Shown piece after piece: positions 3,793 through 41,140 of a stretch of 41,277 nt of DNA (the first letter of the stretch is position 1; every line of letters begins with the position of its first letter). Source of the stretch: a virus; IMG/VR virus record IMGVR_UViG_3300037587_000430, positions 1 to 41,277 of that record; one strand, 5' to 3'. Under the pieces are notes generated by a model. That model saw nothing but the letters and a program-made list of their open reading frames with translations, was not told where the DNA came from and ran no database searches. The position numbers and the translations under genes were made by a program.

Positions 3793-3884
3793 AAACTAAC
3801 CAAAGTATTGACGCCATATTAATAGTATTAATTATAATCTTGGTGTGCCTTTTACTGGCTATAGTGGAGATAAGTATATTATGA
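3789..3884 (+). CDS. 31-residue single-span membrane peptide
   Basis: The frame starts at the ATG overlapping the DUF3850-like stop and ends with a TGA overlapping the next start at 3881 (ATGA on both sides). The product is MKTNQSIDA followed by about 20 hydrophobic residues (ILIVLIIILVCLLLAIVEIS), a clear membrane helix with a short N-terminal head. Overlap coupling on both sides and the clean hydrophobic design argue that it is expressed. Function unknown; single-span phage miniproteins can act in lysis timing, exclusion or modulation of membrane enzymes. Confidence 0.6.
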   Translation: MKTNQSIDAILIVLIIILVCLLLAIVEISIL

Positions 3885-4840
3885 TAATTCATTTTTCATG
3901 CGGTGCAGCTTCGGCGGTATCGGCTCTTATTTGTATGATGGAGAAGCCCGATAAAATAGAGCTTATCTATACGGACCCCGGATCAGAGCATAAAGATAAT
4001 CAGAGATTCTTACGGGACTTTGAAAACCTTGCGGGGCAGAAGGTGACATATTTAAAATCAAAGAAGTATAACAGTCCTATGGATGTATTTGAAGAGAGAA
4101 GATTTCTCGCAGGGCCTAAGGGAGCCCCATGTACAACAGAATTGAAAAAGAAGGTTGCTAGAGATTATCTGGGAAATAGGCTTTTAGAAGAGGTTAACAT
4201 TTGGGGTTTTGATCCAAAAGAGTCCGGTAGAGCTAAAACTTTTAATAATAATAACCCGGAGTTAAGAAGCAGATACCCTTTAATGGAGCACTCAATAAGT
4301 AAAAGCGACTGTTATTATATTATTGATTCTCTTGGTTTGGATCTTCCATATATGTATAAACTTGGCTATAAAAACGCCAACTGCACCGGTTGTGTAAAAG
4401 CTGAAAACCTCGGATACTGGGCGGCTATTCGTGAAGACTTCCCAAAGGTTTATAAATGGTACGCGAAGTTTGAACGGAAAATAGGCGCGATAGATCCAGA
4501 CACAGGTAAACCAAGAGGTGCGGCAATTAATAAGCGGTATAAAAAATGCACTAATTGCGCTGATGCTACTTGTGGAAAGTGTGGCGATGATAATAAAGTT
4601 AGGCATCGTGTTTTTCTTGATGAGTTGCCGAAAGACCAGAAACCGACAAGGAATATTAGCTTCACTTGTGGCTACTCTTGCGGCGCTCAAGATATGGAGA
4701 TTGAAGCGGTTAAGGAATTAACAAAAGAGCCAACTTTAACTGGCTATATAATGTCCCAAGATATAAAGGATTTTCTAATGACCAAGACCAACGCGACAGG
4801 GAAGGATTTGAGGTTAAATAACAATGAGGTGAAGAGATGA
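3881..4840 (+). CDS. PAPS reductase-like ATP-pyrophosphatase family protein
   Basis: 319 residues from the ATG at 3881 (ATGA overlap); an ATG at 3845 lies inside the peptide gene. It has the PP-loop variant HFSCGAASAVSA (residues 4-15), the TDPGSEH segment of the family, a conserved Cys in GAPCTTELKKK (C84) and NCTGC (C168, C171), a layout like the Fe-S or thiol sites of PAPS reductase and DndC relatives. A further Cys cluster (CTNCADATCGKCGDD) near residues 220-236 may bind zinc. In phages this family is widespread and may act in sulfur transfer to nucleic acid or nucleotides; the substrate here is unknown. No dnd partner genes are present. Confidence 0.75.
   Translation: MIIHFSCGAASAVSALICMMEKPDKIELIYTDPGSEHKDNQRFLRDFENLAGQKVTYLKSKKYNSPMDVFEERRFLAGPKGAPCTTELKKKVARDYLGNRLLEEVNIWGFDPKESGRAKTFNNNNPELRSRYPLMEHSISKSDCYYIIDSLGLDLPYMYKLGYKNANCTGCVKAENLGYWAAIREDFPKVYKWYAKFERKIGAIDPDTGKPRGAAINKRYKKCTNCADATCGKCGDDNKVRHRVFLDELPKDQKPTRNISFTCGYSCGAQDMEIEAVKELTKEPTLTGYIMSQDIKDFLMTKTNATGKDLRLNNNEVKR
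4789..4816 (+). repeat. 28-bp gene-end repeat, copy 2
   Basis: Second copy of the 3762-3789 repeat with one base different, placed at the end of the PAPS-reductase-like gene. It again encodes NATGKDLRL, here followed by eight more residues (NNNEVKR and stop). Confidence 0.85.
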
Positions 4841-5233: not shown

Positions 5234-5659
5234 GTGAGTGAGTTAAAAGATTTCAGCAAAATGAGAGCGAAGATAAGCCGTATAGTTTCAGATACTGGGC
5301 ACCGCATTAATTCTTGGGATATGAATATTGAGGATATTGAACGCCTCCAAAAAGAGAGTAAAGCGGAAGATGGAGGCAAAGAAATGAGCTATACAGATAT
5401 ATGCGATCAATGTGGCTTAGCTGCGGTATCACCCTCAAGAGGGATTCCAAGTATTGCAACATGCCCCAATGGTCATAAAGTAATTAGAATGACTTCGGTT
5501 GATTTTTTTAAGCAGCTTAAGGATAAGGACGAGGAGATAAAGCGGCTCAGGGCTATTATTGATACGGCGCACACAAAATTATGTGAAATGCATGGTCACG
5601 AATGGGAAGAAGTCACAAGCGAATTGATGGATTTATTGGAGGTGAAAAATGAGCGATAA
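5234..5659 (+). CDS. hypothetical protein with Cys motif and coiled coil
   Basis: 141 residues from a GTG start. The middle has CDQCGLAAVSP and CPNGHK, which could form a zinc knuckle. It is followed by a heptad-like helix (FFKQLKDKDEEIKRLRAIIDTAHTKL). Function unknown. Its end overlaps the next gene by 11 bp. Confidence 0.65.
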   Translation: MSELKDFSKMRAKISRIVSDTGHRINSWDMNIEDIERLQKESKAEDGGKEMSYTDICDQCGLAAVSPSRGIPSIATCPNGHKVIRMTSVDFFKQLKDKDEEIKRLRAIIDTAHTKLCEMHGHEWEEVTSELMDLLEVKNER

Positions 5660-5855: not shown

Positions 5856-6331
5856 TACTAGCAATTGATCCAGGCAATACAGAAAGCGGTTGGTGCCTTA
5901 TTGATGGTGAATACAAAGTTATCGCAAAAGGCAAAGATGATAATGATGCGGTATTAGATATGATTGATACTTTTGATGAAGTTTACGGCCTAAGCCATGT
6001 AGTGATTGAAATGATTGCCTCATACGGCATGGCAGTAGGTCAGACTGTATTCGATACATGTGTTTGGGTTGGCCGTTTTATGCAAGAGGCTGATCATTTA
6101 AGTATTTCATATTCCCAGATGTATCGGAAAGATATCAAAATGAACCTATGTGGGCAGACAAGGGCCAAGGATTCGAATATACGTCAGGCACTTGTAGACC
6201 GGTTTAGTTATGAGCGACACGCGGCGAAGGGTGGTAAAGGTGTAAAGGCTGATCCGGGGTTCTTCTTTGGGTTCAGTAAAGACATGTGGGCGGCTTATGC
6301 TGTTGGTGTGACTTACTTAGATATGAGATAA
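5852..6331 (+). CDS. RuvC-like Holliday-junction resolvase
   Basis: 159 residues, close to the usual RuvC length. Acidic residues expected for a two-metal RNase H-fold nuclease are visible: D6 in MILAIDPGNTESGW, E53 in HVVIEMIASYG and D144 in KDMWAAYAVG. The enzyme would cut branched DNA made during replication and recombination, clearing it before packaging. It is the last gene of the early block and is followed directly by an intrinsic terminator. Confidence 0.8.
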   Translation: MILAIDPGNTESGWCLIDGEYKVIAKGKDDNDAVLDMIDTFDEVYGLSHVVIEMIASYGMAVGQTVFDTCVWVGRFMQEADHLSISYSQMYRKDIKMNLCGQTRAKDSNIRQALVDRFSYERHAAKGGKGVKADPGFFFGFSKDMWAAYAVGVTYLDMR

Positions 6332-16233: not shown

Positions 16234-17109
16234 ATGGACGAACCAGCACCAGCACCCACAGAACCGGCAGCACCAATTGATACACCGTCAACTGAACCAT
16301 CAACACCAGCACCAGAACCAACAGCCAATTTACTTGGTTCAGTTGATGACGGTGGGGGTATTCAGCCAGATACGAGCAATGAGCCGTGGTTCAATCAGCT
16401 TGACGAGGAATACCGAACTAATCCAAACGTAACAAAATACGATTCAATGAATGAGATGGCTAAAGGCTTAATCAATCAATCGGCTTTAATTGGCAAAAAA
16501 GGCATCATCAGACCTGGCGAAGATGCAACACCGGAAGAAATGGGCGAATATTTCAACTCTATTGGCCGACCTGCTGAATCCAGCGGCTATAAATATGAAC
16601 CAATCGAAGGCGCGCCAGAGGTAGATTCAGATGCAATGGCTAGCTTTACGGAGTTTGCCCATCAAAAGGGATTTACTCAGGAACAATATCAGAGTGTAAT
16701 TGAACTTGATCTGCAAAGGCAGCAAGAAAGCCAAGTGCTATTTGAACAGGAAAAAGTTGATGAAATCGCCCAAACTCGTATGGCTATTTATGATGAGTTA
16801 GGCGAGGCAGAAGGAAACGCCTTAATTCAAGATGCCGATTCAGCAGCAGTGTCACTGGGTTTAATCGATGTATTAAGGGACGCTGGTGTCATTAATAACT
16901 TAGGCTTAATTAAAGCCCTTGCCAATGCCCGTAAAGATCTTGGCTCAAGCTCAATGGTTGGTGGTGAGCAGATAAGTACCGAGAGCTTTGAAACACAAGT
17001 GGCAGCGATCAGAGCGAATCCAGCATTTAAAGATCATACCCATCCTGACTTCAAGGGTTTAGAAGCTAAAATGGATTCGTTATTTAAAGTGAGATTTCCT
17101 GGTAAGTAA
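16234..17109 (+). CDS. capsid scaffold (assembly) protein
   Basis: 291 residues, acidic. A Pro/Ala/Thr-rich start (EPAPAPTEPAAPIDTPSTEP) is followed by a helical, Gln/Glu-rich body (FAHQKGFTQEQYQSVIELDL) and a C-terminal helix with basic residues (LEAKMDSLFKVRFPGK) that can bind the capsid protein. This matches T7 gp9-type scaffolds. It lies just before the capsid gene, separated only by the RNA unit. Its stop is followed at once by the -35 box of that unit's promoter. Confidence 0.8.
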   Translation: MDEPAPAPTEPAAPIDTPSTEPSTPAPEPTANLLGSVDDGGGIQPDTSNEPWFNQLDEEYRTNPNVTKYDSMNEMAKGLINQSALIGKKGIIRPGEDATPEEMGEYFNSIGRPAESSGYKYEPIEGAPEVDSDAMASFTEFAHQKGFTQEQYQSVIELDLQRQQESQVLFEQEKVDEIAQTRMAIYDELGEAEGNALIQDADSAAVSLGLIDVLRDAGVINNLGLIKALANARKDLGSSSMVGGEQISTESFETQVAAIRANPAFKDHTHPDFKGLEAKMDSLFKVRFPGK

Positions 17110-17138
17110 TAGACAATTAAGCTACAAAGAGGTATAAT
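17110..17138 (+). promoter_or_regulatory. near-consensus sigma70 promoter of the structured RNA
   Basis: TAGACA (17110-17115), 17-bp spacer, TATAAT (17133-17138). One mismatch in the -35 and none in the -10 make it the best promoter in the window. Start is expected at about 17145. Confidence 0.8.
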
Positions 17139-17144
17139 ATTAAA

Positions 17145-17428
17145 TGATTTTAACCCTCTACATAACGGTGGCTCTATTGAGCACACCACCGGCATTTAGT
17201 CAACGTGCCGGACCTGTAGTAATGAGAGTAGAAGCGGTTCTGGAGAGTAGGGAGGTTTTACAGCCGACTATTATAATTACCAGACCAGAACTGCTGCAAA
17301 TCTACTTAGCTATAATCCCTCTTAACGGAATAGCAAACAATTCAATCTGGTTACGGCGCAGAGTTAAGGGCTCTGTCTGCTGTTGACTACGAAGATTTGC
17401 CCCGACTAAGTAAAGTCGGGGCTTTTTT
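17145..17428 (+). ncRNA. putative structured non-coding RNA, no known family
   Basis: About 284 nt between its own promoter and terminator. Complementary segments seen directly: GGTG+GCTC / GAGC+CACC hairpin (17167-17174 with 17179-17187, one bulged A, loop TATT); CCGGCA/TGCCGG (17189-17194 with 17206-17211); an 11-bp helix with one G-U pair, 17233-17243 with 17285-17295; immediately next to it GCAAATCT/AGATTTGC, 17296-17303 with 17393-17400; and CAGAG/CTCTG, 17359-17363 with 17371-17375, whose loop TTAAGGG could pair with 17317-17325. The one long frame here starts at 17144, at the transcript's own 5' end with no ribosome site, so coding is unlikely. I matched no tRNA, tmRNA or known phage RNA class. 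Possible roles: regulation of capsid/scaffold ratio, antisense to host RNA, or packaging. Confidence 0.65.
17399..17428 (+). terminator. intrinsic terminator of the structured RNA
   Basis: GCCCCGACT (17399-17407), loop AAGTAA, AGTCGGGGC (17414-17422), then TTTTTT. Nine perfect base pairs. The first two bases can alternatively join the 17296-17303 helix. Confidence 0.92.
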
Positions 17429-17449
17429 GTGCTATAAAATTAATACAGT

Positions 17450-17478
17450 TTGCATAATCCATAAATAATATTTATATT
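17450..17478 (+). promoter_or_regulatory. sigma70-type promoter for the capsid gene
   Basis: TTGCAT (17450-17455), 17-bp spacer, TATATT (17473-17478). A second promoter is needed here because the terminator just upstream would stop transcripts from the scaffold side. Start expected near 17485. Confidence 0.55.
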
Positions 17479-17484
17479 AGAGTT

Positions 17485-17597
17485 AAGGACACCCCGTTTC
17501 TACGGCCCTTGTTTTATCCAAAACATCGGCCCCTTCCAACATTTAGAAGACAAGGCCATAACAACAAATGGTTTTAATCTAAATACAGGAGTGCCTC
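17485..17597 (+). promoter_or_regulatory. structured 5' leader of the capsid mRNA
   Basis: About 113 nt. GGCC-C-TTGT (17504-17512) can pair with ACAAGGCC (17550-17557) with one bulged C, forming a stem over the middle of the leader. AGGAG at 17587-17591 is the ribosome site. A stable leader may raise capsid mRNA life. Confidence 0.45.
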
Positions 17598-18596
17598 ATG
17601 GCCCTAACATTCGATGAACATAATAAGGTAAGATACCGCAATTCAATCCTCCACTTAGCTGGTGAGCTAAGAAAATCCATGCTGGAGGAATATGTTGAAA
17701 AAGATAACCAACAGGGTGAAATCATTTTCCTTGACTCGGTTGTTGCTGATGACGAAGCAAACTCAGGCTTGGTAACTAGCCTTGATGCGAACTACCGCAA
17801 AGGTTACGAGCAGGGAACAGCCAACCATGCTAATTTCATGCTTACCCAGACGCCGCACCATGAAATCCTCAGAACCAGAACTCAACTTGTTCCGATTCTG
17901 AACGACACTGGCCACACCTTCCGATCACTTGATAAAGCTTTGGCTAATCAAAATGAATCATCTAAGGTTCTGATTGAATTGACTGGTCGTATGGCGAAGA
18001 AGAAAGAGCGAATTATCCTTGATGCTCTTTTTGCCAACTCAGTAACTCGCGGTAAGAATGAAGGTGTAGGCGCACCGGTTATTTTTCCAACGGCTCAAGA
18101 GATTCCTGTTGCTAGTGGCGAGCTTGATAAAGATGTCTGTAACGACATTAAAACCAAGTTTGAAGAGAATTACATCGGCTCAGTTGGTGTTGATGAGGCA
18201 ATTATGATGCTCATCTCTCCACAGCAGAAAAACTTCCTAATCGCTAATAGTGGTGGAGTCCTTCACAGTAGAGACTTTATTGCTGCAAGTGGTCACTTCG
18301 AAGGTGGAACACTCCCTGACGTTTACGGCGTGCATATGATCGTTCACCCTGAATTAACTCAAGGCCGTGGCTATGAAGTTGATGGCGACGGTAACGGCAC
18401 TTGGTCAGGTGGCCGTGCGGTTGCCTTCACCAAAAAGTGGGGCTGCTTCAACCAGTTCGAAGGTCTTGATTCAAACATCGACCGTGATCCTGGCGAAAGA
18501 TTCCAGATGAAATTGTACATCAGCGAAATGATCAACGCAGCCCGCGAAGATGATAAGCGTGTTGTCCATGTTCAGTTCGGTACGCAAGCGCCGTAA
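17598..18596 (+). CDS. major capsid protein
   Basis: 332 residues. The body matches podovirus capsid proteins of the T7/related HK97-fold type: a helical start (VRYRNSILHLAGELRKSMLE), the segment RKGYEQGTANHANFMLTQTP, the ISPQQKNFLIANSGGVLHSRD region and a conserved C-terminal domain (DPGERFQMKLYISEMINAAR). It builds the icosahedral shell. It has its own promoter and leader, fitting high demand. A stem-loop without a T-run follows it. Confidence 0.88.
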   Translation: MALTFDEHNKVRYRNSILHLAGELRKSMLEEYVEKDNQQGEIIFLDSVVADDEANSGLVTSLDANYRKGYEQGTANHANFMLTQTPHHEILRTRTQLVPILNDTGHTFRSLDKALANQNESSKVLIELTGRMAKKKERIILDALFANSVTRGKNEGVGAPVIFPTAQEIPVASGELDKDVCNDIKTKFEENYIGSVGVDEAIMMLISPQQKNFLIANSGGVLHSRDFIAASGHFEGGTLPDVYGVHMIVHPELTQGRGYEVDGDGNGTWSGGRAVAFTKKWGCFNQFEGLDSNIDRDPGERFQMKLYISEMINAAREDDKRVVHVQFGTQAP

Positions 18597-32121: not shown

Positions 32122-33993
32122 ATGTTTTACCCACACACTATAAAAGGCAAGGTGAATCTAAGGCGTGATATCATCAGTGAAATTATCCCCCCTGACAGGC
32201 CTGGGCCAATTTGCACTATAAATACGACCGTTCTTGGGCCTAGCACTTCTAATGTTTTCCAGTTTCAGCTACCTCTTATAGAAACTGAAGGATACTTCTT
32301 TGAGATAGATTGGGGCGACGGACAGACAGATAATATAGCAGACCCATTAGCGCCAGAGGCTCTACACACTTACAGCACTCCCGGACAATATGATATAGGA
32401 ATCACAGGCGTATTCCCTACTATGGCATTTGATGGGGGTGGCGACGCTATAAAAATGGTAGACTGGAAGGAGTGGAACGAGATCAAGCTAAGTGAGGCCA
32501 TGTTCGATGGTTGCATAAATATTACTTTCTCCTCCACTGACACTTTTGAAGTCTTAGGCACATCATTAGCGCGCGCTTTCAGGGATTGCGCCTCAGTTGT
32601 ATCGATAACAAATCTTGACCTGTTAGACACATCTTTGGTGACTGACATCTCATCCATGTTTAGAGATGCTACATTATTTAATCAGGGATTAAATTTATGG
32701 AATGTCTCTTCTGTGATTAATGCCGCCTTCTCATTTGCTAATGCAGTAGCCTTCAACGGTAATGTTGCCTCTTGGAGTACCGGCAATATGACAGATATGG
32801 CCGCGATGTTCTTGGGTGCATCTTCATTTAATAGAAATATAAGTTTTTGGAACGTGGAGAAAGTGATCAGTATCGGTGGCATGTTCTTGGGTGCAACTAT
32901 ATTTAATCAACCTATTGGATCTTGGACGACCCCAGAATTTGCCACTCTAGAGTTTATTTTCCAAGATGCAATCGCCTTCAACCAAGACCTTAGCCATTGG
33001 GATGTGAGTAAAGTCTTAGAAATGCAGAGCGCATTCCAAGGAGCGACAGCATTCAATCAAGATATTAGCGGTTGGCTTGTTCCTTTGGTCGCTGATATGG
33101 AAAATATGCTTGATGATTGCGGAATGGATCAAACTAATTATGACCTATGGTTAATTGCCCTAGATGCACAAACCTTACAAGTGGGCATACCAATGGGCGC
33201 GGCTGGACGTATATATACACGTCTTGGCGCTGGTGGAATAGCTAGAGATGCATTATTACTCGCACCAGCCTTGATGGAAATAACAGGTGATTTGGCAGAC
33301 AAAGTAGATTACAATATGTCGAACTTTGACAACTCAAGAGGCGTTTCTGTTCCGGACCATGCAACCCTCGATATGACTAATGATTTCGCGGCTTGTGCTT
33401 TTGTTTATCCACATAATAGGAATAAAGCACAATTTATAATAGGTAAATACCATAATGCGGGTAACCAAACTTCATGGCTTTTAGGGATTACCATTTCGGG
33501 AGTTGTGAACTTCTGGCATTCGGTTGATGGCGCGGCTGAAACTATATTCACTTCAACTATGGCTGTTCCATTAAACACATTATCATTAGTTCATTTTAGG
33601 TTAACTGGCGGGACATTATATCTAGGTTTAAACGGGGCCTTGGAACAATCAATTGCTAGGGGTGCTTGTTTTTCTGGAAGCGCCAACGTGGAGGTCGGAA
33701 TGACGGGCCAAGGAGGCATTTTTAATGACGACTTCGACATAACCAAAGCAATGATACTTGATTCTGGGTCATCTCTTGCGGAAATGCTTACTATTTATAA
33801 TGGTGGTTTTCCTCTTGAACACAATCTATTAGAAATTGTTGACTCGGATATTACCGACGCTGCTGTACTAGAATTAGAGATGAGCAGCAACGACACGTCA
33901 TTGATAGATAAATCGAGCGCTGGCAATGATGGTTCATTCGCTATCGGATCATTCACAAACGGTCAATCTATCCCATGGCAAACTCAACTTTAA
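32122..33993 (+). CDS. adhesin-like protein 1: PKD-like, DUF285 (BspA-type) repeats and LamG-like domain
   Basis: 623 residues. Near the start is a PKD-like domain (FFEIDWGDGQTDN, HTYSTPGQYDIGITG). About six to seven repeats of ~25 residues follow, of the DUF285/BspA-type pattern (FNQDLSHWDVSKV, FNQDISGWLVPLVADMENML). Then a conserved cap (DDCGMDQTNYDLW) and a C-terminal LamG/concanavalin-like beta sandwich (from DKVDYNMSNFDNSRG). All parts suit binding to surface sugars or proteins, so it is a likely receptor-binding or decoration protein. It has a shorter paralogue at 34285. Confidence 0.75.
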   Translation: MFYPHTIKGKVNLRRDIISEIIPPDRPGPICTINTTVLGPSTSNVFQFQLPLIETEGYFFEIDWGDGQTDNIADPLAPEALHTYSTPGQYDIGITGVFPTMAFDGGGDAIKMVDWKEWNEIKLSEAMFDGCINITFSSTDTFEVLGTSLARAFRDCASVVSITNLDLLDTSLVTDISSMFRDATLFNQGLNLWNVSSVINAAFSFANAVAFNGNVASWSTGNMTDMAAMFLGASSFNRNISFWNVEKVISIGGMFLGATIFNQPIGSWTTPEFATLEFIFQDAIAFNQDLSHWDVSKVLEMQSAFQGATAFNQDISGWLVPLVADMENMLDDCGMDQTNYDLWLIALDAQTLQVGIPMGAAGRIYTRLGAGGIARDALLLAPALMEITGDLADKVDYNMSNFDNSRGVSVPDHATLDMTNDFAACAFVYPHNRNKAQFIIGKYHNAGNQTSWLLGITISGVVNFWHSVDGAAETIFTSTMAVPLNTLSLVHFRLTGGTLYLGLNGALEQSIARGACFSGSANVEVGMTGQGGIFNDDFDITKAMILDSGSSLAEMLTIYNGGFPLEHNLLEIVDSDITDAAVLELEMSSNDTSLIDKSSAGNDGSFAIGSFTNGQSIPWQTQL

Positions 33994-34016
33994 ACAAAAC
34001 TAACGAGGAATAAAAA

Positions 34017-34283
34017 ATGTCAAAGTTTAAGCTTACACCCGGGAAAGATAGCGTCGTACATAACATGCATGGTACGATTTATGAGAAAGTAGTTGCGGCG
34101 CCTTATACTTATCACATGCACGCGGCAGTTACAGATCAAGCCCTTCTAGCCAAACCAGTCTGGACAATATGGCGTGAACATGATGATGGTCAAATAGTTC
34201 CACCGGTTGTCGATGATGCTCCACATCCAGACGGCAATATAGCCACAGATCCAACCGTATTAGTTTACTGGGCTACGACATAA
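34017..34283 (+). CDS. small partner protein, paralogue 1
   Basis: 88 residues. LTPGKDSVVHNMHGTIYEKV, then YHMHAAVTDQA and PVWTIWREHDDG. The protein at 35857 has the same signature (LTPGK, HNLHGTIY, YHCHAAVT, NPVWTIWRED). Each copy follows a DUF285 adhesin gene. The two may be adaptors, chaperones or capping subunits for their adhesin. Not otherwise recognised. Confidence 0.65.
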   Translation: MSKFKLTPGKDSVVHNMHGTIYEKVVAAPYTYHMHAAVTDQALLAKPVWTIWREHDDGQIVPPVVDDAPHPDGNIATDPTVLVYWATT

Positions 34284-34284
34284 A

Positions 34285-35535
34285 ATGAGTATATATAACC
34301 TTCGGCCATATATAGGTGGTATACCTCTGATCGGAGGCTATAGCCTAGAGCCTTATATTAATACTGACGGTGGGGTTCCTCTATTTATTAGCACTTGGAA
34401 TACAGAGCTCACTGACGCCACAGCAAGTGCTACCAAGACTATTGTGTTGCCAATGACCGCCGGACCTTTAGTAGATTGGGGTGATGGAACAACTCCAGAT
34501 AATTTAAATTCTCACGTCTATGCGCTCACAGGTACTTACGAAATAATCATCGACAATACCAACAGTGACTTTAGGTTCAATAACTTAGGGGACAAGGTAA
34601 AAATTACAGACGTTAGTCAATGTAATGGGTTGAATGTAACCAACGACAGCGTTTTCGAAAGATGTGTTAATATGACTTGGTCAGCAACTGACGCTCCGGT
34701 CATAGCATCTACGAGCCTCAATAATATGTTTGAAGGTTGTGAAGCATTGAACGGCAGTGGTAGTTTTAGTAAATGGGACTTAAGTCTATGTACTAGCCTA
34801 ACTAACATGTTCTTCGGTTGTTTCGATTTCTTAGGATCTGGATTAGAAGATTGGGACGTAGGAAGCTGCTCCAACTTCGCTCAGATGTTCTTTGCAGCCA
34901 ACGTATTCGCTGCACCTATAGGCGTTTGGAATATGATCAGCGCCACTACCATCAGTGGAATGTTCAGAAGCGCGAGTAATTTTAATGTCGATGTTAATGC
35001 TTGGGACACTAGTAATATACAGACAATGAATCATGTGTTTAATGGAACCTCCTTCACTCACGATCTAGATAATTGGGATATGGGTTCAGCCGTCACCATT
35101 CATGCGATGTTCGGCTCCACGGCCTACAATGGAGACATTACCGGTTGGGTATTCACTTCAACAATAAGCGATATATCTTGGATCTTTGCAGGTGCCACGT
35201 CATTTAACCGTGACATTAGTGGATGGAATGTAGCTTCTGCTACTAATTTAAGTAATATGTTCGGTGGTGCTTCAGCGTTCGATCAGGATCTGACTGGATG
35301 GCTCATACCAAATGCTACAAACCTGGCAACTATGTTAGATAACTGTGGCATGAGCACTGCCAACTACGATGCGTTCTTAATTATGTTAGAAGCTCAAGAA
35401 GCATCAATAAATTCTGGCCTGACTCTTGGCGCTCAATCGCTCACTTATACTAGCGCGGGTGCCGGTGGTACTGCAAGAACTGGATTACTAGGATCTCCCG
35501 CCTTAATGTCATTCGTAGGAGATAGCGGAGTATGA
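34285..35535 (+). CDS. adhesin-like protein 2: PKD-like and DUF285 repeats
   Basis: 416 residues. PKD-like start (LVDWGDGTTPDNL, HVYALTGTYEIII), then about eight to nine DUF285 repeats (FNVDVNAWDTSNIQTM, FNRDISGWNVASATNLSNMF) and the same cap as protein 1 (DNCGMSTANYDAF, AGAGGTARTGLL). It stops at the point where protein 1 continues into its LamG-like domain; the gene at 35532 follows with a 4-bp overlap. A diverged duplicate of the 32122 gene. Confidence 0.75.
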   Translation: MSIYNLRPYIGGIPLIGGYSLEPYINTDGGVPLFISTWNTELTDATASATKTIVLPMTAGPLVDWGDGTTPDNLNSHVYALTGTYEIIIDNTNSDFRFNNLGDKVKITDVSQCNGLNVTNDSVFERCVNMTWSATDAPVIASTSLNNMFEGCEALNGSGSFSKWDLSLCTSLTNMFFGCFDFLGSGLEDWDVGSCSNFAQMFFAANVFAAPIGVWNMISATTISGMFRSASNFNVDVNAWDTSNIQTMNHVFNGTSFTHDLDNWDMGSAVTIHAMFGSTAYNGDITGWVFTSTISDISWIFAGATSFNRDISGWNVASATNLSNMFGGASAFDQDLTGWLIPNATNLATMLDNCGMSTANYDAFLIMLEAQEASINSGLTLGAQSLTYTSAGAGGTARTGLLGSPALMSFVGDSGV

Positions 35536-40616: not shown

Positions 40617-40779
40617 TATTTCTCTCAAGTCTTTTAGTTAGTGTTGGGAATTCTTTCTCTAATAACGTCTGAATAAGCTCAGTTTGACTCATTTCGTAAA
40701 GATCTGAGCCCTTAACCGCTAATTTCTTATGGAAGCCATCAACCCTGATGACATCGCCTTTGTGCTTGCTTTTAACCAT
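40597..40779 (-). CDS. small putative DNA-binding repressor
   Basis: 60 residues from the ATG at 40779 with GAGG upstream; an in-frame start at 40818 would precede the -10 box's transcript start. A strand-like VIRVDGFHKKLAV followed by a helix (MSQTELIQTLLEKEF) is compatible with a ribbon-helix-helix protein. It is the first leftward gene at a divergent promoter with palindromes, the classic place for a repressor. Function is inferred from position. Confidence 0.5.
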   Translation of the reverse strand: MVKSKHKGDVIRVDGFHKKLAVKGSDLYEMSQTELIQTLLEKEFPTLTKRLERNNGTDTK

Positions 40780-40809
40780 TGTATCCTCGTTTTGTTTGAT
40801 GTTAAGTAA

Positions 40810-40838
40810 ATGATACACTCACTGTTAACATATCGCAA
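40810..40838 (-). promoter_or_regulatory. leftward sigma70-type promoter with operator
   Basis: On the minus strand: TTGCGA (40838-40833), 17-bp spacer, TATCAT (40815-40810). The spacer contains TGTTAACA (40823-40830). Start expected near 40803, about 24 bases before the repressor ATG. Confidence 0.6.
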
Positions 40839-40892
40839 GGAGGGTTTTTGTTTTTGTGCAAGAAAACGAAATTATTAAAATTTATTGTGATA

Positions 40893-40922
40893 ACACTTGA
40901 TAAGTGTAATATGTTAACATAT
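40893..40922. promoter_or_regulatory. operator palindromes of the early promoter
   Basis: Two inverted repeats lie side by side: ACACTT-GAT-AAGTGT (40893-40907) over the -35 box and the 14-bp perfect palindrome ATATGTTAACATAT (40909-40922) in the spacer and -10. The core TGTTAACA recurs in the leftward promoter at 40823-40830, suggesting one regulator for both. Confidence 0.6.
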
Positions 40923-40925
40923 ACT
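40897..40925 (+). promoter_or_regulatory. rightward early promoter
   Basis: TTGATA (40897-40902), 17-bp spacer, TATACT (40920-40925); each box is one base from consensus. Start near 40932, 20 bases before the first early gene. Overlapped by both palindromes. Confidence 0.75.
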
Positions 40926-40951
40926 AACCTCATAACAAAACGGAAATAACG

Positions 40952-41140
40952 ATGATCAAAAAACTAACAAGTCTAAAAAAAGCAGTAAAAGGCCAGACTA
41001 TAATTAACCTTATAGTGGCCCCGGATGATTCGAGCGCTGAGTTCAAACTATCCAACGGTAAGAAGTTAATAATAACCGGCGAACTAATACCACTCTTGGT
41101 TGTTTCGCTTAAATTAGAAATGAAGGTAATACAGAAATGA
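40952..41140 (+). CDS. first early gene, small hypothetical protein
   Basis: 62 residues. A basic start (MIKKLTSLKKAVKG), then strands (TIINLIVAPDDSSAEFKLSN, GKKLIITGELIPLLVVSLKL). Not recognised. First product of the early operon; it ends with an ATGA overlap to the next gene. Confidence 0.65.
   Translation: MIKKLTSLKKAVKGQTIINLIVAPDDSSAEFKLSNGKKLIITGELIPLLVVSLKLEMKVIQK

Follow-up and report, generated by a model that had tools for sequence, protein, structure and literature searches.

A candidate structured RNA gene and a conserved capsid leader at the scaffold-capsid junction of a tailed phage

We analyzed a 41,277-base virus record, here called the window. The best single reading of positions 17110-17428, between the scaffold-like gene and the major capsid gene, is a free-standing structured RNA, on a predicted fold whose support is purely thermodynamic. 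We give an even chance that this unit is a stand-alone RNA gene specific to the lineage of this phage. A separate element lies downstream of it. It consists of the capsid promoter and an undescribed 5' leader of the capsid mRNA, conserved in relatives. The broader proposal, in which a new free-standing phage RNA and this leader both tune the capsid dosage during assembly, is improbable when taken as a whole.

The window shows the gene order terminase, portal, scaffold-like gene, capsid and tail genes. Its right end carries an antirepressor (Ant-like) and a RecE-like exonuclease. Among the window proteins examined, none was a large RNA polymerase. Searches of bacterial genomes with the capsid and terminase found no relative and so name no host. 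Elsewhere in the window, a gene at 3845-4840 resembles phosphoadenosine phosphosulfate reductase (PHROG 424). Two proteins of the tail-end genes (32122-35535) present DUF285 repeats, one of them together with a lectin-like domain.

Table 1. Features of the scaffold-capsid junction. Positions are those of the window, except in the last line.
Feature	Position	Strand	Remarks
Scaffold-like gene	16234-17109	+	PHROG 3742 / 458; 41-60% identical to the scaffold proteins of four relatives
Sigma70-like promoter TAGACA-17-TATAAT	17110-17138	+	11/12 consensus, 17-bp spacer; first base directly after the scaffold stop
Shine-Dalgarno-like AAAGAGG	17126-17132	+	11 nt upstream of ATG 17144; available only on mRNA that reads through from scaffold
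Predicted structured transcript, ~285 nt	17144-17428	+	Fold z -5.2 / -6.2; start inferred
80-codon open frame, probably not coding	17144-17386	+	ATG 17144; end 12 nt before the terminator
Two adjacent RNA hairpins	17166-17211	+	17167-17187 and 17189-17211; pair probabilities ~1
Long-range helix	17225-17308	+	11 bp 17233-17243/17285-17295 (probability ~1) with a 7-bp extension, or an alternative 8-bp helix
Intrinsic terminator	17399-17428	+	9-bp perfect hairpin 17399-17422, then T6
Conserved capsid promoter TTGCAT-17-TATATT	17449-17478	+	Kept in L001, L010, L017 (L017: TTGACA-17-TATATT)
Conserved capsid 5' leader	17483-17597	+	Boxes GGACACCCC, CGGCCC, CGGCCCC, AGACAAGGCCA; two hairpins
Major capsid gene	17598-18596	+	PHROG 3437 / 267
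Leader/promoter counterparts	L001 2838-3000; L010 3857-4000; L017 5665-5826		Also L013, L002, L003

The segment 17144-17428 presents structure beyond chance, as expected of a stand-alone RNA gene. On the plus strand, 17145-17428 folds at -99.6 kcal/mol, against -72.8 in the shuffled sequences (z = -5.2), and none of the 200 shuffles was as low. A second shuffle test of the same strand gave z = -6.2. The value without the terminator was -4.0. For the antisense (reverse complement) it was -1.0, so the excess of structure is specific to one strand. Of the 162 tiles of the whole plus strand of the window, no other has a z or an energy as low as the tile at 17145. The second most structured tile of that strand (40767-41020, z = -4.3) is a divergent control region. 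It carries TGTTAACATAT palindromes near the antirepressor and is operator-like in appearance.

The two hairpins, and the 11-bp helix described by the original prediction, are all recovered with pair probabilities of about 1. The prediction had also stacked an 8-bp helix (17296-17303/17393-17400) directly on the 11-bp one. This part does form when the fold is ended at 17400, with the terminator loop still open. In the full transcript, the helix has a probability of about 0.01, with an energy cost of only 2.6 kcal/mol. It is rare there because it needs the two bases with which the terminator stem begins. The fold models thus present this helix as a probable minority form of the complete RNA, in competition with the terminator.

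The unit 17110-17428 is also framed by a promoter and an intrinsic terminator. Both had been predicted, and we found them in the expected places: a near-consensus sigma70 promoter after the scaffold stop, and a perfect hairpin followed by T6 at the end. Promoters with at least 11 of the 12 consensus positions occur twice in the window, counting both strands, and the mean in shuffled sequence is 2.0. Their frequency is at chance, and only the placement exactly at the scaffold stop is informative. The terminator has a homologue in a relative without the RNA, G009 (L022), with E = 7e-6 and 83%. The homology with 17399-17422 extends to the TTTGCCCC and GGGGCTTTTTTGTGC flanks. From the scaffold stop to the terminator there are 289 nt in the window against 76 nt in G009. 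Because of this homologue, we assign the terminator to the scaffold operon. It appears to be the ancestral terminator of that operon and not the RNA's own, and the RNA would fill the space between the stop and the terminator.

The 80-codon frame inside the unit raises a second reading, a small protein gene. Its product, of 80 amino acids and hydrophobic at its start, would be made either from the scaffold mRNA, with AAAGAGG as ribosome site, or from a leaderless message, and the structure would be secondary. We consider it unlikely, although it is the strongest of the alternatives. An open frame of 80 codons on the plus strand appears in 0.1% of dinucleotide shuffles (P ~0.001), and with an ATG in none of 2000. 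Moreover, none of the 16 stop triplets falls in this frame, all being in the remaining two (P = 0.0015). The frame was first described as the only long one and as lacking a ribosome site. That is correct if the transcript starts at ~17144-17145, but not on the read-through mRNA, where AAAGAGG precedes the ATG. The same 11-nt spacing is used at genes 30161 and 32122 of the window. The frame also ends close to the terminator, and orphan small genes are numerous in phages.

Nevertheless, codon and amino-acid usage like that of the genes of this phage was not found in 17144-17386. The codon score, -0.13, falls below the 0.05 that marks the 1st percentile of true 80-codon stretches. The amino-acid score (-0.12) is close to the random median (-0.14) and under all 34 small frames taken as genes of this phage (lowest value -0.04). 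The usage is random-like and has a non-coding look. Searches in PHROGs, Pfam, NCBIfam and with tblastn gave no homologue, family or domain for the frame. An AlphaFold model of its product, made with no alignment and weak as evidence, had a pLDDT of 55. Finally, the structure inside the frame (-77.8) exceeds that of synonymous shuffles (-58.9; z = -4.0) and that of random codons for the same protein (z = -3.9). The protein does not account for the RNA structure, since synonymous shuffles fold less well. We prefer the RNA reading because the structure exceeds chance on one strand only and goes beyond the demands of the protein, and because the usage of the frame looks non-coding.

Relatives were collected by capsid and portal searches (capsid 35-69% identical, portal 75-78%). 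The RNA is absent from their scaffold-capsid gaps wherever the gap sequence is present, in collections that may omit very close records. It is missing from nine relative records, with the exception of the terminator. Run against 154 kb of relatives, a covariance model of 17145-17310 recovered no sequence but its own, and four further contigs gave no match. DNA and helix-pattern searches that covered phages, plasmids and viral contigs yielded no match beyond chance. Rfam showed no match to the unit at or above the gathering threshold, and ARAGORN reported nothing for it. The RNA is missing from more distant relatives too, and for this reason a gain in the lineage of the window seems more likely than losses elsewhere.

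This absence, together with the chance frequency of the promoter, could also suggest incidental DNA, recently acquired, with inverted repeats and functionless. The scaffold-capsid gap is variable, from ~185 to 505 nt in relatives, and in L002 it contains an HNH-like endonuclease frame. However, the structure is strand-specific, is the most extreme in the window and is framed by a promoter and a terminator. So, we hold incidental DNA to be improbable, more than the protein gene. These gap lengths also contradict the idea that podoviruses keep a short gap between scaffold and capsid, at least in the group of this phage. A dual-function RNA, both structured regulator and messenger of the small protein, is the least probable reading: chance would rarely give either the frame or the structure, but neither is conserved and the codon usage is random-like. 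Between RNA and protein, the RNA gene ranks first, the protein gene second and both at once third.

The strand-specific excess fold, the promoter and terminator on both sides, the random-like codons and the absence from relatives speak for the free-standing RNA. Against it are the lack of a homologue, the improbable openness and the ribosome site of the frame, the chance-frequency promoter and the lack of above-chance pairing with the starts of phage genes.

Most likely, the host RNA polymerase would use the TAGACA/TATAAT promoter, begin this RNA at ~17144-17145 and end it at 17422-17428. The product would be a compact and stable RNA of ~285 nt that acts as RNA, for instance as a trans-acting regulator or a sponge late in infection. 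The transcription of the scaffold operon would end at the same 17422-17428, with the RNA gene read separately. Antisense pairing of the RNA to the starts of the phage genes, including the capsid leader, was only at chance level and revealed no target. One set of antisense duplex energies permitted long loops and is not informative. Two short matches were rejected as chance-level. One is a 10-nt direct repeat, AGAGTTAAGG, present in both the RNA and the capsid leader. The other is a 10-nt complementarity, GTAGAAGCGG/CCGTTTCTAC.

Stand-alone phage RNAs of ~285 nt are an already known kind, because examples exist in ICP1 and phiR1-37, although the RNA of the window has no known relative. Phage ICP1 produces abundant transcripts without orfs, one of them of ~300 bp/nt between gp135 and gp136 (PMC7567579). 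In Yersinia phage phiR1-37, misc_4 has 296 nt and is listed as trans-acting (PMC12197685). The RNA of the window is similar to these two in length, intergenic position and absence of a confident protein. However, they were seen by RNA-seq, whereas it is predicted only and lies between scaffold and capsid. GOLLD and ROOL, which are large ornate phage RNAs, are likewise structured. The RNA of the window is far smaller and has no Rfam match. On the other hand, the C4-type antisense RNAs of P1/P7/N15/P4 are complementary to gene leaders (PMC7567579). The phage of the window has an Ant-like antirepressor, but its RNA shows no Rfam match and no above-chance complementarity to gene starts.

Among phage genes, the capsid is usually one of the most strongly expressed, and the ratio of scaffold to capsid is important in assembly. 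The RNA had been proposed to insulate the transcription of the capsid. This does not hold, since relatives that lack the RNA still have the terminator, and they also have a separate promoter for the capsid. The transcriptional separation of scaffold and capsid would depend on these two elements, both independent of the RNA.

Identity to L001, L010 and L017 reaches 76-85% in the region 17441-17597, while in the scaffold and capsid genes it is only 63-68%. The box pattern of the leader has one match in each of seven genomes or contigs, always upstream of the capsid. Conservation upstream of the same gene, as in leaders that mask the Shine-Dalgarno, is thus present in 17483-17597. The phages with the leader include L002, L003 and L013, with a capsid identity of 35-39%. 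Rfam gave no match for the leader. A search of further viral contigs found two already-known relatives and chance matches only.

Three pairings of the leader were tested. One is a hairpin between the CGGCCC boxes, another is a stem that begins in GGCCA, and the third joins the Shine-Dalgarno to the segment that follows CGGCCCC. In an arm-swap permutation with seven related sequences and hand-set arms, uncorrected for relatedness, the own pairs were better than the swapped ones (p = 0.004, 0.005 and 0.018). When only the four close relatives were used, significance was lost for the first two pairings (p = 0.125 and 0.33). The manual choice of the arms, the small number and relatedness of the sequences and this loss of significance make the covariation of the arms and the pairing with the Shine-Dalgarno only suggestive.

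By analogy, the closest known kind for 17483-17597 would be cis-regulatory 5' leaders in which the Shine-Dalgarno is hidden. It resembles them in its conservation, its own promoter, its hairpins and a Shine-Dalgarno pairing that seems to co-vary with the Shine-Dalgarno. It differs in the lack of an Rfam match and in C-rich boxes unmatched in known families. The leader hairpins probably mask the ribosome site and control the translation of the capsid. We infer that the capsid is transcribed from its own conserved promoter and that the leader sets its translation. If true, the separation of the two genes by a terminator, a structured RNA and a conserved capsid promoter with a controlling leader would illustrate how the scaffold:capsid ratio is set in tailed phages that lack an RNA polymerase of their own. 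Of the RNA and the leader, the leader lends itself better to testing because it is kept across phages with a capsid identity of only ~35%.

The junction presents other elements in relatives. HNH-endonuclease-like frames, identified by eye, flank the capsid gene in distant relatives (L002 1-432 and L003 3325-3858, both on the reverse strand). Their location on either side of this gene suggests that the scaffold-capsid junction is an insertion site. In four relatives, a short lysine/arginine-rich coding pattern (KQKRERKENRVKENKEKKAVS in L001) follows the scaffold terminator, and it is absent from the window. Its sites are L001 ~2650-2720, L022 reverse strand 12-80, L025 ~5440-5510 and L027 ~5890-5950. 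Because only two of the four have an ATG start, this pattern may act as nucleic acid and not as protein. Finally, nested repeats of the TGATAGTATATGATAGTAGGTGATAG type, which the window also lacks, lie upstream of the capsid promoter in L001 (~2775-2830) and L017 (~5566-5618).
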